Below, one piece after another: positions 4,277 through 10,934 of a stretch of DNA of 38,498 nt. The stretch is from positions 1 through 38,498 of the forward strand of contig JASGUU010000010.1 of NCBI GenBank assembly GCA_030057555.1, given 5' to 3'. This DNA is from Bacillota bacterium (lineage in GTDB: Bacteria > Bacillota > Clostridia > Saccharofermentanales > Fastidiosipilaceae). The notes beneath the pieces were generated by a model. That model saw only the letters and a program-made list of their open reading frames with translations, did not search any database and was not told the DNA's origin. Position 1 is the first letter of the stretch. Every line of letters begins with the position of its first letter. A program made the translations under genes and the position numbers.

Positions 4277-5524
4277 TCAGTCCCCCCTGCCGTCGGCGAG
4301 GTCATGGAGCCAGCTGATCTCAATCGCCCCGCGCGTGGCAAACCAGCCGGCGAGGTCGGCGATACCGTCCCGCGCTGTGGCCAGGCGGCGCCAGGCAACG
4401 GTCCTCCCGGCCCCGTCTGCCAGGGGCTCGAGGTCGAGGCCGTCCGTCTCGACCAGCTCCGCGATCCGTTCGTAGGTTTCGCTGTCCCGGGGACGCAGGA
4501 CGCCGCTGAAGGCCTCTTCCACCAGCCCGGAAGCTTCCGCTGCCTGCCAGCTCAGGGCGACAGCCGGAGACCATGGGGTTCGCATGCAGGCGGTGATGTC
4601 GGCGAGCACGGCGGAAGCCGTCGGAGCGGCTCCGGCTCCCTGGCCGTAGAGCAGGCTGTCGCCAACTTCGGAACCATGGATCAGGATGGCGTTATAGACG
4701 CCGCGAGCCACGGCGAGAGGATGCCTGCGCGGCACCAGCGTCGGCGCTACACGCAGAAGCATGTTGCCGTCCTCCGTCGCCACCATGCCGGCTATGAGAC
4801 GGAGATAGCAGCCGAGCCTCCTGGCGAGTTCGAGATCGTCCGGTTCAATTTCGCGGATGCCGGTGATGGGAATCTGTTCCCAGTCGACCAGGCGGCCGCT
4901 CGCGAGGGCTGCGAGAATGGCGAGTTTCCGTCCGCTGTCGAGGCCGTCAATATCAGACGCCGGATTGCGCTCGGCATAGCCGAGGCGCTGCGCCTCGGCG
5001 AGGCTCTCGGCGAAGTTCTGGCTGTCCGTCTCCATGCGGTCGAGGATGTAGTTCGTCGTGCCGTTGACAATCCCGTGAATGGACAGGATCCGGTTGGCGG
5101 CGAGATCCTCGGCGAGTGTAGCAATGACGGGAATGCCGCCACCTACGGCGGCCTCAAATAGATAGCGCACCTTCATGCTGTTTGCGAGCTCGAGCAGCTC
5201 GACGCCGTGGGCGGCCACGAGATCCTTGTTCGATGTCACCACATGCCTGCCGGCGAGGAGGCAGCGACGCGTGTAGTCGTAGGCCACGCGGGTGCCGCCG
5301 ATGGTCTCAACGACGAGGTCAATTGTGGGATCCTCGAGAACCGTCTCGATCCCGCTGCTGCGCAGGGCCTCGAGCCGCGGATCCCCGAGCTCCGCGATGT
5401 CGACGATGTGGCGCAGCACCGGCGACGTGCCCAGCCTGTCGGCGATCAGTTCGCCATGGTCAAGCAGCAGATGGGCCACGCCGGCGCCGATCGTCCCACA
5501 ACCCAGAATTGCTATGTTCATCAT
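4277..5524 (-). CDS. hom: Homoserine dehydrogenase
   Basis: About 415 residues. It reduces aspartate semialdehyde to homoserine with NAD(P)H, the branch point to threonine and methionine, in the cytosol. Evidence: an N-terminal Rossmann motif GCGTIGAG (residues 8-15), the NKDL stretch after the nucleotide domain, AAVGGGIP, the NGTTNYIL signature, and the GLDSGRKLAILA segment of the catalytic domain. The C-terminal part is ACT-like but weakly conserved. The start is one of two tandem ATGs (5524 or 5521) behind AGGGGG. It lies 20 bases downstream of the ACT-domain gene and is the last intact gene of the minus-strand cluster that begins with argS. thrB and thrC are not in the window. The neighbouring ACT protein suggests amino-acid-responsive control, which is inference. 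Confidence 0.95.
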   Translation of the reverse strand: MMNIAILGCGTIGAGVAHLLLDHGELIADRLGTSPVLRHIVDIAELGDPRLEALRSSGIETVLEDPTIDLVVETIGGTRVAYDYTRRCLLAGRHVVTSNKDLVAAHGVELLELANSMKVRYLFEAAVGGGIPVIATLAEDLAANRILSIHGIVNGTTNYILDRMETDSQNFAESLAEAQRLGYAERNPASDIDGLDSGRKLAILAALASGRLVDWEQIPITGIREIEPDDLELARRLGCYLRLIAGMVATEDGNMLLRVAPTLVPRRHPLAVARGVYNAILIHGSEVGDSLLYGQGAGAAPTASAVLADITACMRTPWSPAVALSWQAAEASGLVEEAFSGVLRPRDSETYERIAELVETDGLDLEPLADGAGRTVAWRRLATARDGIADLAGWFATRGAIEISWLHDLADGRGD

Positions 5525-5544: not shown

Positions 5545-6030
5545 TTACTTTCCCTGTAACTGCTCGGGCGGCAGCATACGTGCCAGCACCCGGCAGCTGT
5601 GTACACCCGTGACACGGTCGAGGGCAGCGAGCAGCTGGCCAACCTCCATGGTCAGTCCCTCGGTCTCAATGACGACACTGACATCTGCGAGCCCATGCAC
5701 CGGCAGGCCCTGATGGATGGTGAGCACATTGGCCCCGCCGGCCGCGATCTGCGCCGTAATGGCCGCCAGCACGCCGGGCAGATTCTCGATGGCCAGAACC
5801 AGCGTGATGACCGAGCCACGGCTCGATTCGTAGAAAGGCAGTATGGCATCGCGATATTTGTAGTAGGCGCTGCGTGAAATCCCGACACGCTGGACTGCCT
5901 CGTTCACCGAACGGCAATCACCGGAGGCGATGAGTTCCTTCGCCTCCATCACCCGCAGAAAGACATCCGGCAGGGCCCTGGCTTCCACCAGATAGTACGT
6001 GGAGCCTGCCGGCCGCTCCGGCTCCGCCAT
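5545..6030 (-). CDS. pheB: ACT domain protein, UPF0735 (PheB-like)
   Basis: About 161 residues. The N-terminal half contains a short helical module with SVNEAVQRVGISRSAYYKYRD, which resembles a helix-turn-helix and is diagnostic of UPF0735. The C-terminal half is an ACT domain beginning at VITLVLAIENLPGVLAAI and ending VTGVHSCRVL, the kind that binds amino acids. Such proteins are usually found directly upstream of hom in Firmicutes, as here (20 bases). The biochemical role is not established; an amino-acid sensor or regulator is likely. The frame is open to 6126 but the family starts near the ATG at 6030, preceded by AAGGAG only three bases away, which is tight. A promoter for this pair probably overlaps the rdgB stop codon. 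Confidence 0.88.
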   Translation of the reverse strand: MAEPERPAGSTYYLVEARALPDVFLRVMEAKELIASGDCRSVNEAVQRVGISRSAYYKYRDAILPFYESSRGSVITLVLAIENLPGVLAAITAQIAAGGANVLTIHQGLPVHGLADVSVVIETEGLTMEVGQLLAALDRVTGVHSCRVLARMLPPEQLQGK

Positions 6031-6124
6031 GGTCTCCTTGACGCCGCTTTTGTCATTCGTCACGTTCGCGCTCTTCCCCGTCCATTCTGTCCATATCAGG
6101 TGAACACTCGTCCACCGAGCAGAC

Positions 6125-6133
6125 ACTATAGCA
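6125..6133 (-). promoter_or_regulatory. Extended -10 promoter for the ACT gene and hom
   Basis: On the minus strand TGC-TATAGT forms an extended -10 element with -10 hexamer TATAGT at 6130-6125. It overlaps the TAG stop of rdgB. No good -35 is present, as expected for extended -10 promoters. Predicted transcription would start near 6118, leaving an approximately 88-base leader before the ACT gene. The same TGCTA-type signature recurs upstream of four other genes in the window. Confidence 0.45.
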
Positions 6134-6758
6134 CAGGATGCGGCTGCCCGGGCAGACCGTTCCCGTCCAGCATTCTGTCGAGGAGCACACGAACTTTCTG
6201 ATTTGCCCTGCCTCTATGGGAAATGCGGTTCTTGTACACAGGGTCGAGCTCGCCGGAACTCATCGCAATCTCCGGCAGCCAGAAGATCGGATCATAGCCG
6301 AAGCCTTCCGTCCCGCGCGGACTGTGGCCGATCTCGCCCTCGAGTTCGCCGTCCACCGTCCACTCACGGCCGTCGGGGGCGATCAGGGCAATCACGCAGA
6401 CGAAGCGGGCAGCACGGCTGGGGCTGGCCGCGTCAGCGAGCTCTGCCAGCAGATGCCCGATTTTCACCTCATAGGAGCTCGTCTCGCCGGCATAGCGGGA
6501 GGAGTGGATACCGGGCCTGCCCCCGAGCGCATCGACGACGAGTCCCGAATCATCGGCGAGTGCCCAGTCCTGAGGAAAAAGGCGGTGGGCATGGCGGGCC
6601 TTTTGCAGAGCATTCTCGGCAAACGAGCTCCCATCCTCCGGCGGCACCTCGTCCGAACCGCAGTCGGCGAGCGAGACGACCTCCAGCGGCAGTCCGGCCA
6701 GCAGGGCGCGGTATTCACGCAGTTTGCCACTGTTGTGGGTGGCGAGGATGAGTCGCAT
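6126..6758 (-). CDS. rdgB: XTP/dITP diphosphatase (RdgB/HAM1)
   Basis: About 210 residues. It hydrolyses non-canonical purine triphosphates (dITP, XTP, ITP) to monophosphates and pyrophosphate, keeping them out of DNA and RNA. Evidence: the N-terminal nucleotide-binding motif ATHNSGK (residues 6-12), SFAENALQKA, the metal-binding ADDSGLVVDALGG, GIHSSRYAG, the GFGYDPIF signature, and C-terminal SHRGRA. The frame is open 12 codons further, but the ATG at 6758 aligns with the family and has AGAGG seven bases upstream. It lies 25 bases after the M3-like gene in the argS cluster. Confidence 0.95.
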   Translation of the reverse strand: MRLILATHNSGKLREYRALLAGLPLEVVSLADCGSDEVPPEDGSSFAENALQKARHAHRLFPQDWALADDSGLVVDALGGRPGIHSSRYAGETSSYEVKIGHLLAELADAASPSRAARFVCVIALIAPDGREWTVDGELEGEIGHSPRGTEGFGYDPIFWLPEIAMSSGELDPVYKNRISHRGRANQKVRVLLDRMLDGNGLPGQPHPVL

Positions 6759-6783
6759 GCTTTGCCTCTTTCTGCTTATGCTC

Positions 6784-8580
6784 TCAGTAGCCAAACCAGT
6801 AGGCCAGCCGATAGGCGAGGCGTTTCAGAGTCGCCTCGGCGAAGGGATCGTAGAGCCCGCTGCGGCCAAGCAGCTCGCGGAAATGCGCCGTCTGCCCGGA
6901 GGCTGCGAGGTTCATCCATGCCTGTGAGATGCCCTCGCCCCTGTCACTCAGGCTGTGCTCCAGTGCCGCCAGAGCGGCGAGCTGGGCAGCCAGCAGCGGG
7001 GTCGCACGAAAGCTGTCGCTGAAGAAGAACGAATCCTCCAGCCAGTCGGAGGGATCAAAGGGCTCGATGCCCTCGCCGTTGAGGCGCGGGAAAAGTTCGT
7101 CCGTCAGTCCGCTCCAGGCGGCATCCGGGTCCAGCGACCAGAGCGCGCCCCCCGCCGCACCCGCCTCCTCTTCCGACCGCGTGGCGGCGGCCAGGCTGCT
7201 CTCGAAGCGATCACGACGGGCATGGAGGAGAACCTCGTGCAGGACGGCAGTCACCGATGCCCGGGTCAGCTTGACGGCATCGGCTTCGCCACGCGCGAGC
7301 AGGGGGCCGGCATGGGGCAGCAGGAGATGGCGCAGGGTCTGTTCGAGCGTCACCCGTGTGTCGATAGTCCAGTGGCGCTCCAGCACCAGAGCCGCCTCAT
7401 CGGCGATGCCGACATAGGCCAGCTGCGCTCCGATGAGATCGAGGATCGCCGGCAGGTCGGCGGCCTCCTCCGGTGCCTCCAGCAGCAGAATCGCCGCCCG
7501 GGTCAGGGGCAGCGGCAGCAGCTGCGGCCCGGACTCCGACGCGGAGGGCAGAACGCGGACATAGCCACCGCGGCGCAGCTCCCGCCAGGTCTGATGCAGC
7601 GGCGCCGGCAGGGCGGCGAGGACGAGGTCCAGGGTGGCGAGCAGGTCGTGGCGGCAGGCCTCCGAGAGCTCGACCGTCGGCTCAAGCCAGACGGCGGGAT
7701 CCGCCAGTGCCGTGAGCGGGAGCGGTTCCGGAGGCATGGCGGCCACAGCCGCTCTGGACTTCTCGTCATCCTCCCCGGGAGGATAAAGGAAGCTCTGACG
7801 ATCGATGCGCAGACGCAGTGCCAGCGGCACCAGCCAGCGGGCGATGAGGAGGTGGGCGTAGGCGAGTTCGACGCCGTCATAGCCCCAGGCGGAGAGGCGG
7901 CCGAGAGCGAGGGCGCGGTAGTGATGAAAGCCCTGCTGGCGGGCCTGACTGTGACGCAGCCGGGTCAGCTGCCGATAGATATCACGCTGCCGCTCTCTGC
8001 GCTCCGGATCTCCGTCGGCCTTTCCGGCTTCTTCATCCCCGTCGGCCCCGGGCTCCCGCAGACGTTCCCAGGCCGCACAGAGCGCTGCCTCTTCCTCCCT
8101 GTCCTCACGGAGGTGATCCGGGTGAAAGAAGTGGAAGTTCTGGGCCCGCAGAAAGATCATGTTACCCAGTTTTGTCGCCAGCTCCGGCTTGTTTTTATAG
8201 GTCAGCAGGGGCTGCATCGTATCGCGCAGGCACTCGTTGAGCCAGGCTTCGCTGTCCGCGAGCTCCGCGTGCTGCTGGGCAATCGCCTGATCGCCGGGCT
8301 CGAGCGCGTACAGATAGGCTGTCAGTGAGACATTCTCGGCGAAGCCGGCCAGCCGCCGGTCAAATTTCTCGACGGCGGCAACCGCTGCATCTTCGTCGCC
8401 CGCAGCCGGCAGCTGCCGGCGCAGGCGTCGCGCCAGAGACTCGAGATTCGCCCGCTTAGGACGCTTATAGGGCAGGCTGTCGACATCCGGCAGCTCCTGG
8501 CATGCGCGGAAGACCGCCGGACTGCGCCGCATGGCGGAGCTGTCGCTGCGCCGCCTGTCTCCGAACCCGGAGCCTGACAT
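6784..8580 (-). CDS. M3-family oligopeptidase homologue lacking the HExxH zinc motif
   Basis: About 598 residues. The overall pattern matches PepF/M3B oligoendopeptidases: a helical N-terminal half (AYLYALEPGD, NMIFLRAQNF), the RHSQARQQGFHHYRALALGRL segment equivalent to the RxxxAxxxGYxNYxD region, RRGGYVRVL, and a helical C-terminus with AALAALEHSL, NLAASGQTAHFRELLGRSGL. Where the family has HExGH, this protein reads IGAQLAY (residues about 383-389), and the later Glu ligand segment is also not conserved. It should therefore be unable to bind catalytic zinc. It is probably a pseudo-peptidase with a structural or regulatory role; that is inference, as is the family assignment, which rests on scattered similarity. 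Start: ATG at 8580 overlaps the argS TGA by one base (TGATG), so it is translationally coupled; a GTG at 8583 is the alternative. Confidence 0.65.
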   Translation of the reverse strand: MSGSGFGDRRRSDSSAMRRSPAVFRACQELPDVDSLPYKRPKRANLESLARRLRRQLPAAGDEDAAVAAVEKFDRRLAGFAENVSLTAYLYALEPGDQAIAQQHAELADSEAWLNECLRDTMQPLLTYKNKPELATKLGNMIFLRAQNFHFFHPDHLREDREEEAALCAAWERLREPGADGDEEAGKADGDPERRERQRDIYRQLTRLRHSQARQQGFHHYRALALGRLSAWGYDGVELAYAHLLIARWLVPLALRLRIDRQSFLYPPGEDDEKSRAAVAAMPPEPLPLTALADPAVWLEPTVELSEACRHDLLATLDLVLAALPAPLHQTWRELRRGGYVRVLPSASESGPQLLPLPLTRAAILLLEAPEEAADLPAILDLIGAQLAYVGIADEAALVLERHWTIDTRVTLEQTLRHLLLPHAGPLLARGEADAVKLTRASVTAVLHEVLLHARRDRFESSLAAATRSEEEAGAAGGALWSLDPDAAWSGLTDELFPRLNGEGIEPFDPSDWLEDSFFFSDSFRATPLLAAQLAALAALEHSLSDRGEGISQAWMNLAASGQTAHFRELLGRSGLYDPFAEATLKRLAYRLAYWFGY

Positions 8581-10340
8581 CACATGCGCTCCACCGTCTC
8601 GATACCGAGCAGCCCGAGGCCGAGACCGAGCCGGGCCGCGACGGCCTGGCAGAGAGCGAGACGGGCACGCCGCAGTCCCGGCTCTGCGGTCGCCAGAATC
8701 GGCGTGGCAGCGTAGTAGCGGTTATAGGAGCGGGCCAGCTGCAGCAGCCAGCGGGCCAGAACCGAGGGTTCGGAGAGGCGTGCCACCTGTTCGACGATGT
8801 CATCGAAGCAGGCGAGCAGAGTGGCGAGCTCGCGCTCGCTCTCGGACACAAGCAGGCGCAGGTCTGCGGGATCCGCGGCATCTGCCCCATCTCCGCCCGC
8901 GCGGCGCAGGATCGAGGCAATGCGCGTGTTGGTATAGAGCAGGTAGGGTGCCGTGTCACCTTCGAAGTCGAGCATCTCCTCCCAGGAGAAGAGAATGTCA
9001 CGCTCACGGCCGTTCTTAAGATAGAGGAACTGCACCGCGGCGCGTCCGACCAGCTCCGAGGCTGCGGCGATCTCCTCCTCCGTCATGCCGTCGTCGCGTC
9101 CGGCCTGATTCAGCTCCATGATCGAGCGGGTCTTCGCCACCGTTTCGTTCAGCAGATCCTCGAGCTTGACGATGTTGCCGGCACGGGTCGAAAAGTTGCT
9201 GATCTGGGCGCCCTCCCCACTGTTGACGTCGCCTGTTTGGAAGCGGATCGTGCCGAAGCCCACATGCTGGCAGCGATCGGCCCAGTCGCAGCCCATTTTG
9301 TCGAGAACGGCGAAGACCTGACGGAAGTGCAGCGTCTGCGGGATGCCGACCACATAGAGATTGCGGGAGAAGTGATGCTGCTCCCAGCGCCAGATGGCGG
9401 CGGCGACATCACGGGAGGCATAGATGGTGGTCCCGTCGGACTTCAGCAGCAGAGCCGGCGGCAGGTCGAGATCGTCGAGGCGCACAACCTCCGCCCCCTC
9501 ACTGTGCTCGAGCAGGCCGGCAGCACGCAGTCTCTCGATGACAGCGGGGATAAAGGGGCTGTAGAAGCTCTCCCCGTTCCAGTTGTCGAATGCGATGCCC
9601 AGGCGCCGGTAAATGCGCGAGAAGCTCTCGAGACTCAAATTACGGAAGCGCTGCCAGAGAGCGACGGCCTCCGCATCGCCGTTCTCCAGGGCACGAAAGC
9701 GCTCCCGGGCTTCGTCGTCGAGCGTCGGATCGTTTTCGACCTCGTCATGGAAGCGGACATAGATACGCGTCAGCTCGGCGATCGGATCCTCCTCCAGAGC
9801 CCGGTCGTCACGCCAGCGCTCCCAGGCGACGATCAGGCGGCCAAACTGGGTGCCGTAGTCGCCGAGGTGATTGAAGCGCAGGACCCGGGCCCCGCGATAG
9901 CTGTGGATACGGGCGAGCGACTCGCCCAGAATGGTTGAGAAGCCGTGTCCGACATGGAAGGGCTTCGCGATGTTGGGCGAGGAAAACTCGATCAGGACGG
10001 GTCCGGCCTCTGTGTCGACGGGCTCCCTGCGACCGCCCGACTCCCGGATGGCCGTGATCACCGCCGCGGCAAAGGCGCCGGGATCGAAGCGGACGTTGAC
10101 GTAGGCCCCCGTCGCCTCAATGGACAGGAAGAAATCAGGCCATTGGAGTTCCGAGGCGGCAATCTCGGCAGCGATCTGCTGCGGGGCACGGCGGAACCGG
10201 GCGGCGAGGCGGAAGCAGGGCAGGGCCAGATCGCCCAGGGCCGGATCCGGCGGCTGCTCCAGCAGGGCGGCGATATGCCCGCGTTCGAGCCCGGCGGCGG
10301 TGGCCAGCCAGTCGATGGTCTGTTCTCTAAAATCAGGCAT
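8580..10340 (-). CDS. argS: Arginyl-tRNA synthetase
   Basis: 586 residues. It charges tRNA-Arg with arginine using ATP. Domains in order: the N-terminal Add-1 domain that binds the tRNA D-loop (about 1-110), the class I catalytic core starting at EFSSPNIAKPFHVGH with the HIGH-type motif at 129-132, the FNHLGDYGTQFGRL stretch, QTGDVNSGEGAQ, the degenerate KMSKS equivalent STRAGNIVKL (384-393), and the helical anticodon-binding (DALR) domain ending GLLGIETVERM. The Ala in STRAG occurs in other bacterial ArgRS and is not a defect. The start ATG at 10340 has GAGGG eight bases upstream. It is the first gene of a minus-strand cluster with the M3-like gene, rdgB, ACT and hom. Confidence 0.97.
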   Translation of the reverse strand: MPDFREQTIDWLATAAGLERGHIAALLEQPPDPALGDLALPCFRLAARFRRAPQQIAAEIAASELQWPDFFLSIEATGAYVNVRFDPGAFAAAVITAIRESGGRREPVDTEAGPVLIEFSSPNIAKPFHVGHGFSTILGESLARIHSYRGARVLRFNHLGDYGTQFGRLIVAWERWRDDRALEEDPIAELTRIYVRFHDEVENDPTLDDEARERFRALENGDAEAVALWQRFRNLSLESFSRIYRRLGIAFDNWNGESFYSPFIPAVIERLRAAGLLEHSEGAEVVRLDDLDLPPALLLKSDGTTIYASRDVAAAIWRWEQHHFSRNLYVVGIPQTLHFRQVFAVLDKMGCDWADRCQHVGFGTIRFQTGDVNSGEGAQISNFSTRAGNIVKLEDLLNETVAKTRSIMELNQAGRDDGMTEEEIAAASELVGRAAVQFLYLKNGRERDILFSWEEMLDFEGDTAPYLLYTNTRIASILRRAGGDGADAADPADLRLLVSESERELATLLACFDDIVEQVARLSEPSVLARWLLQLARSYNRYYAATPILATAEPGLRRARLALCQAVAARLGLGLGLLGIETVERM

Positions 10341-10529: not shown

Positions 10530-10934
10530 ATGAAATGCAAAACCTGCGGAACGGAAAACGACAACCGAAATGTCTGCATCAAATGCGGGGCCTTCATACA
10601 GGGGCGACGCCTCAACCGCTACGAACGCAGCCCGAGCGAGAAGCGTCGCGATACCGCACGGAAGGTCGGCCGCACCGCGCGCTCCTGTGTGGTGACATCC
10701 CTGCTGATGGTGGCGGCCCTCACCCTGATTACGGTCATCTTTCTGCTGCTTTTCCGCCTCTTCGCCAACTTCCTCGACTTCAGCGATCTCCCACCCGCGC
10801 CGCTGACCGACGCCTCCGGTAACTTTGTCACCGACGCCTCCGGTAACCCGGTCTATCCCAGCACAGCGGAGTCAGAGGAAATCTCGAGCGACGTGAGCGA
10901 CATCACCAGCGACTCCGTCTCGCCCACGAGCTGA
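10530..10934 (+). CDS. Small zinc-ribbon membrane protein
   Basis: 134 residues. The N-terminus is a zinc ribbon with two CxxC pairs (C3, C6, C16, C19). A basic linker follows (about 25-50), then one hydrophobic segment (about 53-82) that should span the membrane with the ribbon inside. The C-terminal tail is polar and rich in Ser, Thr, Asp and Glu, and contains a duplicated TDASGN(F/P)V octapeptide. The function is unknown; zinc-ribbon plus single-helix proteins are common small Firmicute membrane proteins. It has no SD before the ATG and lies directly after an extended -10 element. Its last 82 bases overlap the 3' end of the convergent GH13 gene. Confidence 0.75.
   Translation: MKCKTCGTENDNRNVCIKCGAFIQGRRLNRYERSPSEKRRDTARKVGRTARSCVVTSLLMVAALTLITVIFLLLFRLFANFLDFSDLPPAPLTDASGNFVTDASGNPVYPSTAESEEISSDVSDITSDSVSPTS
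10806..10847 (+). repeat. Tandem repeat inside the zinc-ribbon gene
   Basis: An 18-base sequence beginning ACCGACGCC occurs identically at 10806-10823 and 10830-10847, separated by six bases (24-base period). It encodes the duplicated TDASGN segment of the extracytoplasmic tail. Exact nucleotide identity indicates a recent duplication. Confidence 0.85.

Follow-up and report, generated by a model that had tools for sequence, protein, structure and literature searches.

The locus considered here raises a simple question: why should a bacterium keep, directly behind the gene for its arginyl-tRNA synthetase, a full-length peptidase homologue from which the catalytic site has gone? It lies in a window of 38,498 nucleotides – the whole stretch of DNA analysed – taken from contig JASGUU010000010.1 of a Bacillota bacterium of the family Fastidiosipilaceae, order Saccharofermentanales. 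The answer that we prefer, and which sequence comparison makes probable, is that the gene encodes a non-catalytic M3 pseudo-peptidase retained for a second job, most likely the binding of a peptide or of a partner. Of greater value than this single finding is the order-wide picture of argS-linked M3 genes to which it belongs.

A probable pseudo-peptidase gene overlapping argS

The gene occupies positions 6784 to 8583 of the minus strand: 599 codons, read from a GTG start at 8583 down to a stop codon at 6784–6786 without an internal stop. The initial annotation had placed it at 6784–8580 and called it intact; a gene is indeed there and its frame is whole, but no strand had been given and the open reading frame extends to 8583. 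Its start codon overlaps the stop codon of argS in the tetranucleotide GTGA (8580–8583, minus strand). On the same strand argS itself lies upstream (8580–10340; Pfam PF00750 at 5e-79, PF05746 and PF03485), preceded by an alpha-amylase-type gene; downstream follow an rdgB/Ham1-type nucleotide pyrophosphatase gene (6126–6758; PF01725 at 1e-59), a conserved gene whose product matches nothing in Pfam (5545–6126) and hom, encoding homoserine dehydrogenase (4277–5524; PF00742 at 1e-58). A sister species (record JASGUW010000029.1) shows an identical gene order, and its pseudo-peptidase shares 75–76% identity with that of the window across the protein. Neither copy contains a stop or a frameshift, so the locus is not a pseudogene produced by frameshift.

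Evidence that the product is an M3 homologue, as had been supposed from the letters alone, came from profile searches. As a single sequence the window protein gave no match to Pfam, a match to NCBIfam TIGR02289 of 8.8e-9 that falls below the curated cut-off (34.5 against 442.35 bits), and phmmer matches in the PDB to 3ahm (3.3e-5) and 3sks (1.9e-4). A four-sequence profile – the window protein, its counterpart in the sister species and two further proteins (G008 and G011) of the window's family, coded f1 among the families f1 to f4 of the order – matched the PDB oligopeptidases 3ahm at 1.2e-19 (in two stretches), 3sks at 1.7e-17 and 2h1j at 5.5e-16. When hhalign was used to align the window profile with one built from 16 active relatives linked to argS, the match extended over 530 columns, with a probability of 99.6 and an E-value of 9e-25. 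Among the 32 proteins with an erased site in our first set of genomes, 31 matched TIGR02289 individually at E up to 0.001 and six matched Pfam M3. This calls for caution in annotation: 31 of 32 match an M3 oligoendopeptidase model and none has a complete site. The hhalign result, the PDB profile matches and the TIGR02289 matches of the erased relatives together rule out chance similarity and a protein from outside the M3 family: by sequence family the window protein is an M3 peptidase, with a relationship detectable over its full length. The link is weak for individual members (G005 and G018 score 12.3 and 16.2 bits against the active-member profile), and for the three-dimensional fold AlphaFold2, run on just two sequences (the window protein and L035), returned a pLDDT of 38 and a pTM of 0.30.

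The nearest relatives of solved structure are oligopeptidases of the TIGR02289 type (M3_not_pepF): 3ahm, which we take to be Pz-peptidase, 2h1j and 3sks. The active argS-linked profile scores about 600 bits against each of the three, and the window protein aligns with them nearly end to end in length and scaffold residues. Unlike them, it has no HExxH, no third ligand and no C-terminal His/Tyr set, and its 34.5 bits compare with the 442 of the cut-off.

The extent of the loss is best seen against an active argS-linked relative (G020), in which the motif reads H363-E-G-G-H367. Glu392 of that protein, some 29 residues after the first His, is presumably the third zinc ligand, judging from the spacing in M3 structures; the C-terminal set (H487, Y494, Y495, Y498) corresponds to the His and Tyr residues that serve the transition state and the substrate in M3 structures. 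In the window the place of HExGH is taken by DLIGA (codons 382–386; 7426–7440, minus strand), the glycine preceding the second His being the sole survivor. QLAY comes straight after, so the IGAQLAY reported in the initial annotation was read correctly. Val411 (7351–7353, minus) stands in the place of the third ligand, and in the C-terminal loop, WLEDSFFFSDSFRATPL (codons 514–530; 6994–7044, minus), all four residues are replaced, by F, R, A and L. The sister species has D, Q, V, G and A in the motif, V for Glu392, and F, Q, A and L in the His/Tyr set. No HExxH occurs elsewhere in the 599 residues. The one stretch that comes near to it, H449-E-V-L-L-H, has the wrong spacing and reads HSVLLH in the sister species. 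Since both His residues, the general base and the third ligand are gone, as is the His/Tyr set of the C-terminus, this protein is expected neither to hold zinc as M3 enzymes do nor to cut peptides.

Site states across the order and the number of losses

In order to place the window gene we drew on two sets of genomes, of 58 (55 informative) and 40 (37 informative); G004, G010 and G041 of the first and G079, G091 and G097 of the second were dropped, with argS or the sequence 3′ of it absent or of insufficient length. A gene was counted as directly 3′ of argS if its frame opens no more than about 60 bases past the argS stop. By this measure an M3-related gene directly follows argS in 85 of the 92 informative genomes (49/55 and 36/37). 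Seven have none beside argS (G003, G027, G038, G044, G047, G053 and G065), and whatever job the gene performs is therefore dispensable. Adjacency of argS and TIGR02289 matches outside the order was looked for by eye among the matches listed for a 157-genome sample of the class, five of whose genomes belong to the order, and none was found; the model would miss eroded copies in that sample.

The state of the site follows family lines. Among the 83 linked proteins of the site alignment – the fragments G062 and G089 stop short of the site and count only as gene present – HExGH is kept in 30/30 of f2, 5/15 of f4 (G033, G050, G056, G074 and G077), 0/9 of f1 and 0/29 of f3: 35 intact and 48 erased. 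A check and a refuting condition set out with the initial annotation are thus answered. Relatives do retain HExxH beside argS, 35 of them, and none of the 48 erased orthologues carries an HExxH elsewhere in the protein. The other refuting condition, a profile search without an M3 match, is contradicted by the profile matches given above. One protein counted as erased, that of G019 (f4; L137:109-1599), is about 500 residues long and is missing the whole active-site stretch.

Between the extremes lie partly stripped sites. Two proteins, with HTAGH (G025) and HNVGH (G017), keep both His residues, Glu392 and H487, and have lost the general base and Y494/Y495. A third (G056, L080) keeps HESGH and Glu392 and has lost H487 and the Tyr set: possibly a separate route to inactivity, to judge from these residues. 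Two further genomes that share a genus code with it (G074, L226; G077, L229) have the complete M3 catalytic set. One fixed gene position thus offers a series from intact, through partly stripped with either the zinc ligands or HExxH kept, to fully erased.

The ancestral state can be approached through M3 proteins that are not linked to argS. Twenty such proteins match TIGR02289 over its cut-off; leaving out three with an in-frame stop and one that is partial gave an outgroup of 16, all of which keep H363, E364, H367, E392, H487, Y494, Y495 and Y498. Four more, below the cut-off and outside the tree (L207–L210), have HExGH in their longest frames. Given 16 intact outgroup proteins activity is probably ancestral, and the common ancestor was probably intact at its catalytic site.

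How often the site was lost is a matter on which the two trees differ in clarity, the M3 gene tree being the less clear. The ArgS tree, built from 56 proteins, makes G033 and G050, both intact members of f4, sisters of the erased G014, G019, G022 and G036 (96/93), and G056 sister of G030, G017 and G025 (97/92). A single clade of all HExxH genomes is rejected (p-AU 1.35e-9), which favours repeated loss. G017 and G025 being sisters of the erased G030 on this tree, one loss could cover all three. The M3 tree with the outgroup, from which G019 was left out and into which nine of 34 new rows were taken, unites fast-evolving erased proteins, those of f1 and f3 together with most from f4 (36 rows, SH-aLRT 99); the M3 tree also weakly rejects a single f4 clade (p 0.029).

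Such a grouping is what would be seen if erasure had happened a single time and the erased lineage had then spread, through transfer or through replacement of copies beside argS, instead of arising repeatedly in place. We consider that unlikely. The branches that unite the erased copies belong to the longest of the M3 tree, and the phylogenetic program itself cautions that joins of this kind may be false; in the different families all copies occupy one and the same place behind argS; the partial losses of G017/G025 (among or next to intact copies) and of G056 fall outside the big erased group even on the M3 tree; and there is the rejection of one active clade by argS. Simple parsimony with regain allowed gives three changes on the ArgS tree and two on the M3 tree. 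If loss is irreversible the ArgS tree would call for three or four in total: two within f4 and, depending on where the root lies, one or two more to account for f1 and f3. Two is the floor of either tree, and several losses of the zinc site are likely on this phylogenetic reading.

Selection on the erased copies

A gene that has lost its chemistry might simply be on its way out. Erosion of this kind would mean that catalysis had become redundant, that constraint had relaxed, and that the remaining copies – held by the operon or by the recency of the event – were heading to loss. The absence of the linked gene from seven of 92 genomes is in accord with such a process, as is the redundancy afforded by other M3 genes; so too is a linked frame (L241, in G089) that ends after 140 residues, about 500 bases before the contig end, and may be a true pseudogene or an assembly error. 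Furthermore, erased copies evolve faster than active ones: the median ratio of M3 to ArgS distance is 3.03 in f1, 2.39 in f3 and 3.60 in erased f4, compared with 0.89 in f2 and 1.96 in three intact f4 pairs. This acceleration also fits partial relaxation.

Substitution patterns nevertheless point the other way. For the window and its sister species dS is about 0.75, dN 0.16 and dN/dS 0.22, near the values of the neighbouring genes (argS 0.12, rdgB 0.16, hom 0.15, amylase-type gene 0.11). From 14 erased pairs above 50% identity 11 finite estimates were obtained, of which the window pair is the highest; the ten others range from 0.08 to 0.15. Under neutral simulation a distance of 0.75 brought in 9.7 stops on average, and not one of 2000 replicates stayed free of stops (2/2000 did at 0.5; 6/2000 at 0.3); long intact frames persist in three families. 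The erased copies are under purifying selection by these codon-based measures, as had been suspected in the initial annotation from the intact window gene and its setting. A homologue without catalytic residues that is kept by selection is a pseudoenzyme, and on the evidence of its sequence the window protein is one; the proposal of a pseudo-enzyme in the initial annotation is thus supported as to lost residues and retained selection, and the non-catalytic job is what we infer. We regard erosion towards loss as improbable.

What selection has kept is telling. In the 32 erased proteins Gly366, Arg210, Pro253 and Pro547 are each retained in 30, as against three for H363, six for E364, two for H367 and four for E392. 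The first set's 17 intact proteins agree completely at eighty residues. Those within cleft blocks that we chose ourselves (323–443 and 485–498) are retained, on average, in 26% of 30 erased proteins (G017 and G025 left out), and those elsewhere in 50% (p 1e-4, or p 0.001 once the four columns of the zinc site are taken out). With Gly366 kept and retention lower in the cleft blocks, scaffold is better preserved than the old chemistry. Just five columns are near-invariant across all 32 erased proteins, and by our reading these are scaffold positions.

In f3 the old active-site helix has acquired a new consensus, FYxxGxxLAD, which is not expected of decaying genes: among 16 proteins Val362 has become Phe in 15, Gly366 is kept in 16 and Ala371 has become Asp in 13. 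The same pattern would be expected had the fold been turned, within its old cleft, to another activity that does without zinc, and in one f3 genus (g13, five rows) the blocks spanning 323–443 are among the best conserved. The block 323–400 is, however, not specially conserved in f3 as a whole (mean identity 0.24) or in genus g18 (six rows), nor in f1 (0.16); no new catalytic-looking set is common to f1, f3 and f4; and the five near-invariant columns read as scaffold. A repurposed enzyme is thus very unlikely. The poor conservation of block 323–400 in f1 and f3 also weakens the part of our preferred reading that places binding in the cleft.

Candidate roles for a retained, probably non-catalytic protein

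Of the 32 genomes whose linked copy is erased, 30 (all except G002 and G009) hold a further M3 gene over the Pfam cut-off, as against four (G033, G050, G056 and G057) of the 17 whose copy has HExxH, in a count made by hand. The contrast (Fisher p 8e-7) is uncorrected for kinship, and f2 being one clade makes the association with a backup just a hint. The genome of the window has three such paralogues (L002, L003 and L107), all with HExxH. These numbers bear on the possibility that the erased protein serves an active M3 paralogue as its regulatory or structural partner subunit, in the manner of the inactive alpha subunit of the mitochondrial processing peptidase. It is suited by the near-constant company of another M3 gene and by the paralogues of the window genome; yet the latter are distant and lie on other contigs, and in G002 and G009 an erased copy persists with no other Pfam M3 gene above the cut-off. 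We think this arrangement distinctly unlikely. G009 and G038 have no Pfam M3 match at all, and the latter also has no argS-linked gene; some members of the order may thus do without any M3 peptidase.

Our preferred reading, a protein retained for binding, allows the history of the locus to be sketched as follows. The window gene would represent, at this locus, a long-standing branch of M3 oligopeptidases linked to argS, whose nearest solved relatives by sequence are 3ahm, 2h1j and 3sks. The ancestor, to judge from 16 intact outgroup and 35 intact linked proteins, would have been a catalytically active zinc oligopeptidase with its gene immediately behind argS, and from the outset or shortly afterwards it would have had a second role, one requiring the folded protein and not hydrolysis. 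The zinc site would then have been lost, probably several times, where other M3 peptidases cover peptide cutting, and the protein retained. Today's window protein would most likely be a clamshell that no longer cleaves and that binds, in the cytosol, either a peptide or a protein partner; the overlapping start presumably keeps its synthesis in step with that of ArgRS.

The start overlapping argS and the apparent RsmF-like neighbour in several relatives provide a setting of translation genes, from which a role in translation is our guess. Carried further, the linked M3 protein may have been bifunctional from early on and have served translation, for instance through binding of ArgRS or of peptides, whether nascent or released; catalysis would then have been dropped in parallel in several families and the role in translation kept. 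This extension is doubtful, and we put it forward tentatively. It likens the protein to the pseudo-peptidases Tma108 and Ebp1, which act at the ribosome.

Pseudoenzymes are known from several metallopeptidase families: a review (PMC11266112) describes Tma108 (M1), Ebp1 (M24), alpha-MPP (M16), ADAM proteins (M12) and FtsHi (M41), some of which bind peptides or act at the ribosome. As in these cases, the window protein would combine a peptidase fold with lost catalytic residues and, on our reading, another role, which for some of the known proteins lies in translation. It differs in family, no M3 member appearing in the tables of that review, and in being bacterial, with both active and erased orthologues in a single place within the operon. 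A closer parallel in history is offered by the fungal Ssd1/Dis3L2 pseudonucleases, for which the source (PMC8097288) reports that activity was lost at least four times, that a second function stayed, and that a bifunctional ancestor is proposed; repeated loss of activity with the protein kept is what we propose for the linked M3 gene. Those proteins are nucleases whose second function has been described, whereas that of the linked M3 protein is a matter of inference. Among the matches listed in our search of the open-licence PMC literature there were neither M3 pseudoenzymes nor argS-linked oligopeptidases.

The series of site states at one position makes it testable, by comparison of active and erased orthologues, whether a second function precedes the loss of activity. 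If early bifunctionality is true, the order would provide a natural series for an enzyme turning into a binding protein.

Several features of the neighbourhood may be recorded in their own right. In G020, G008 and G033 the gene after the M3 gene reads as an RsmF-like RNA methyltransferase, with rdgB coming next in G020, and in five genomes that have no linked M3 gene (G027, G038, G044, G047 and G053) the RsmF-like gene appears to follow argS directly. In the window (junction at 6758–6784) and in the f3 genome G016, rdgB takes the place of the RsmF-like gene. The conserved protein encoded at 5545–6126 has a dN/dS of 0.11 relative to the sister species (165 codons), and a similar-looking protein stands at the corresponding place in G016. 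Finally, a small frame on the plus strand at 10530–10934, adjoining argS, opens with a zinc-ribbon-like CxxC...CxxC start and contains a hydrophobic stretch.
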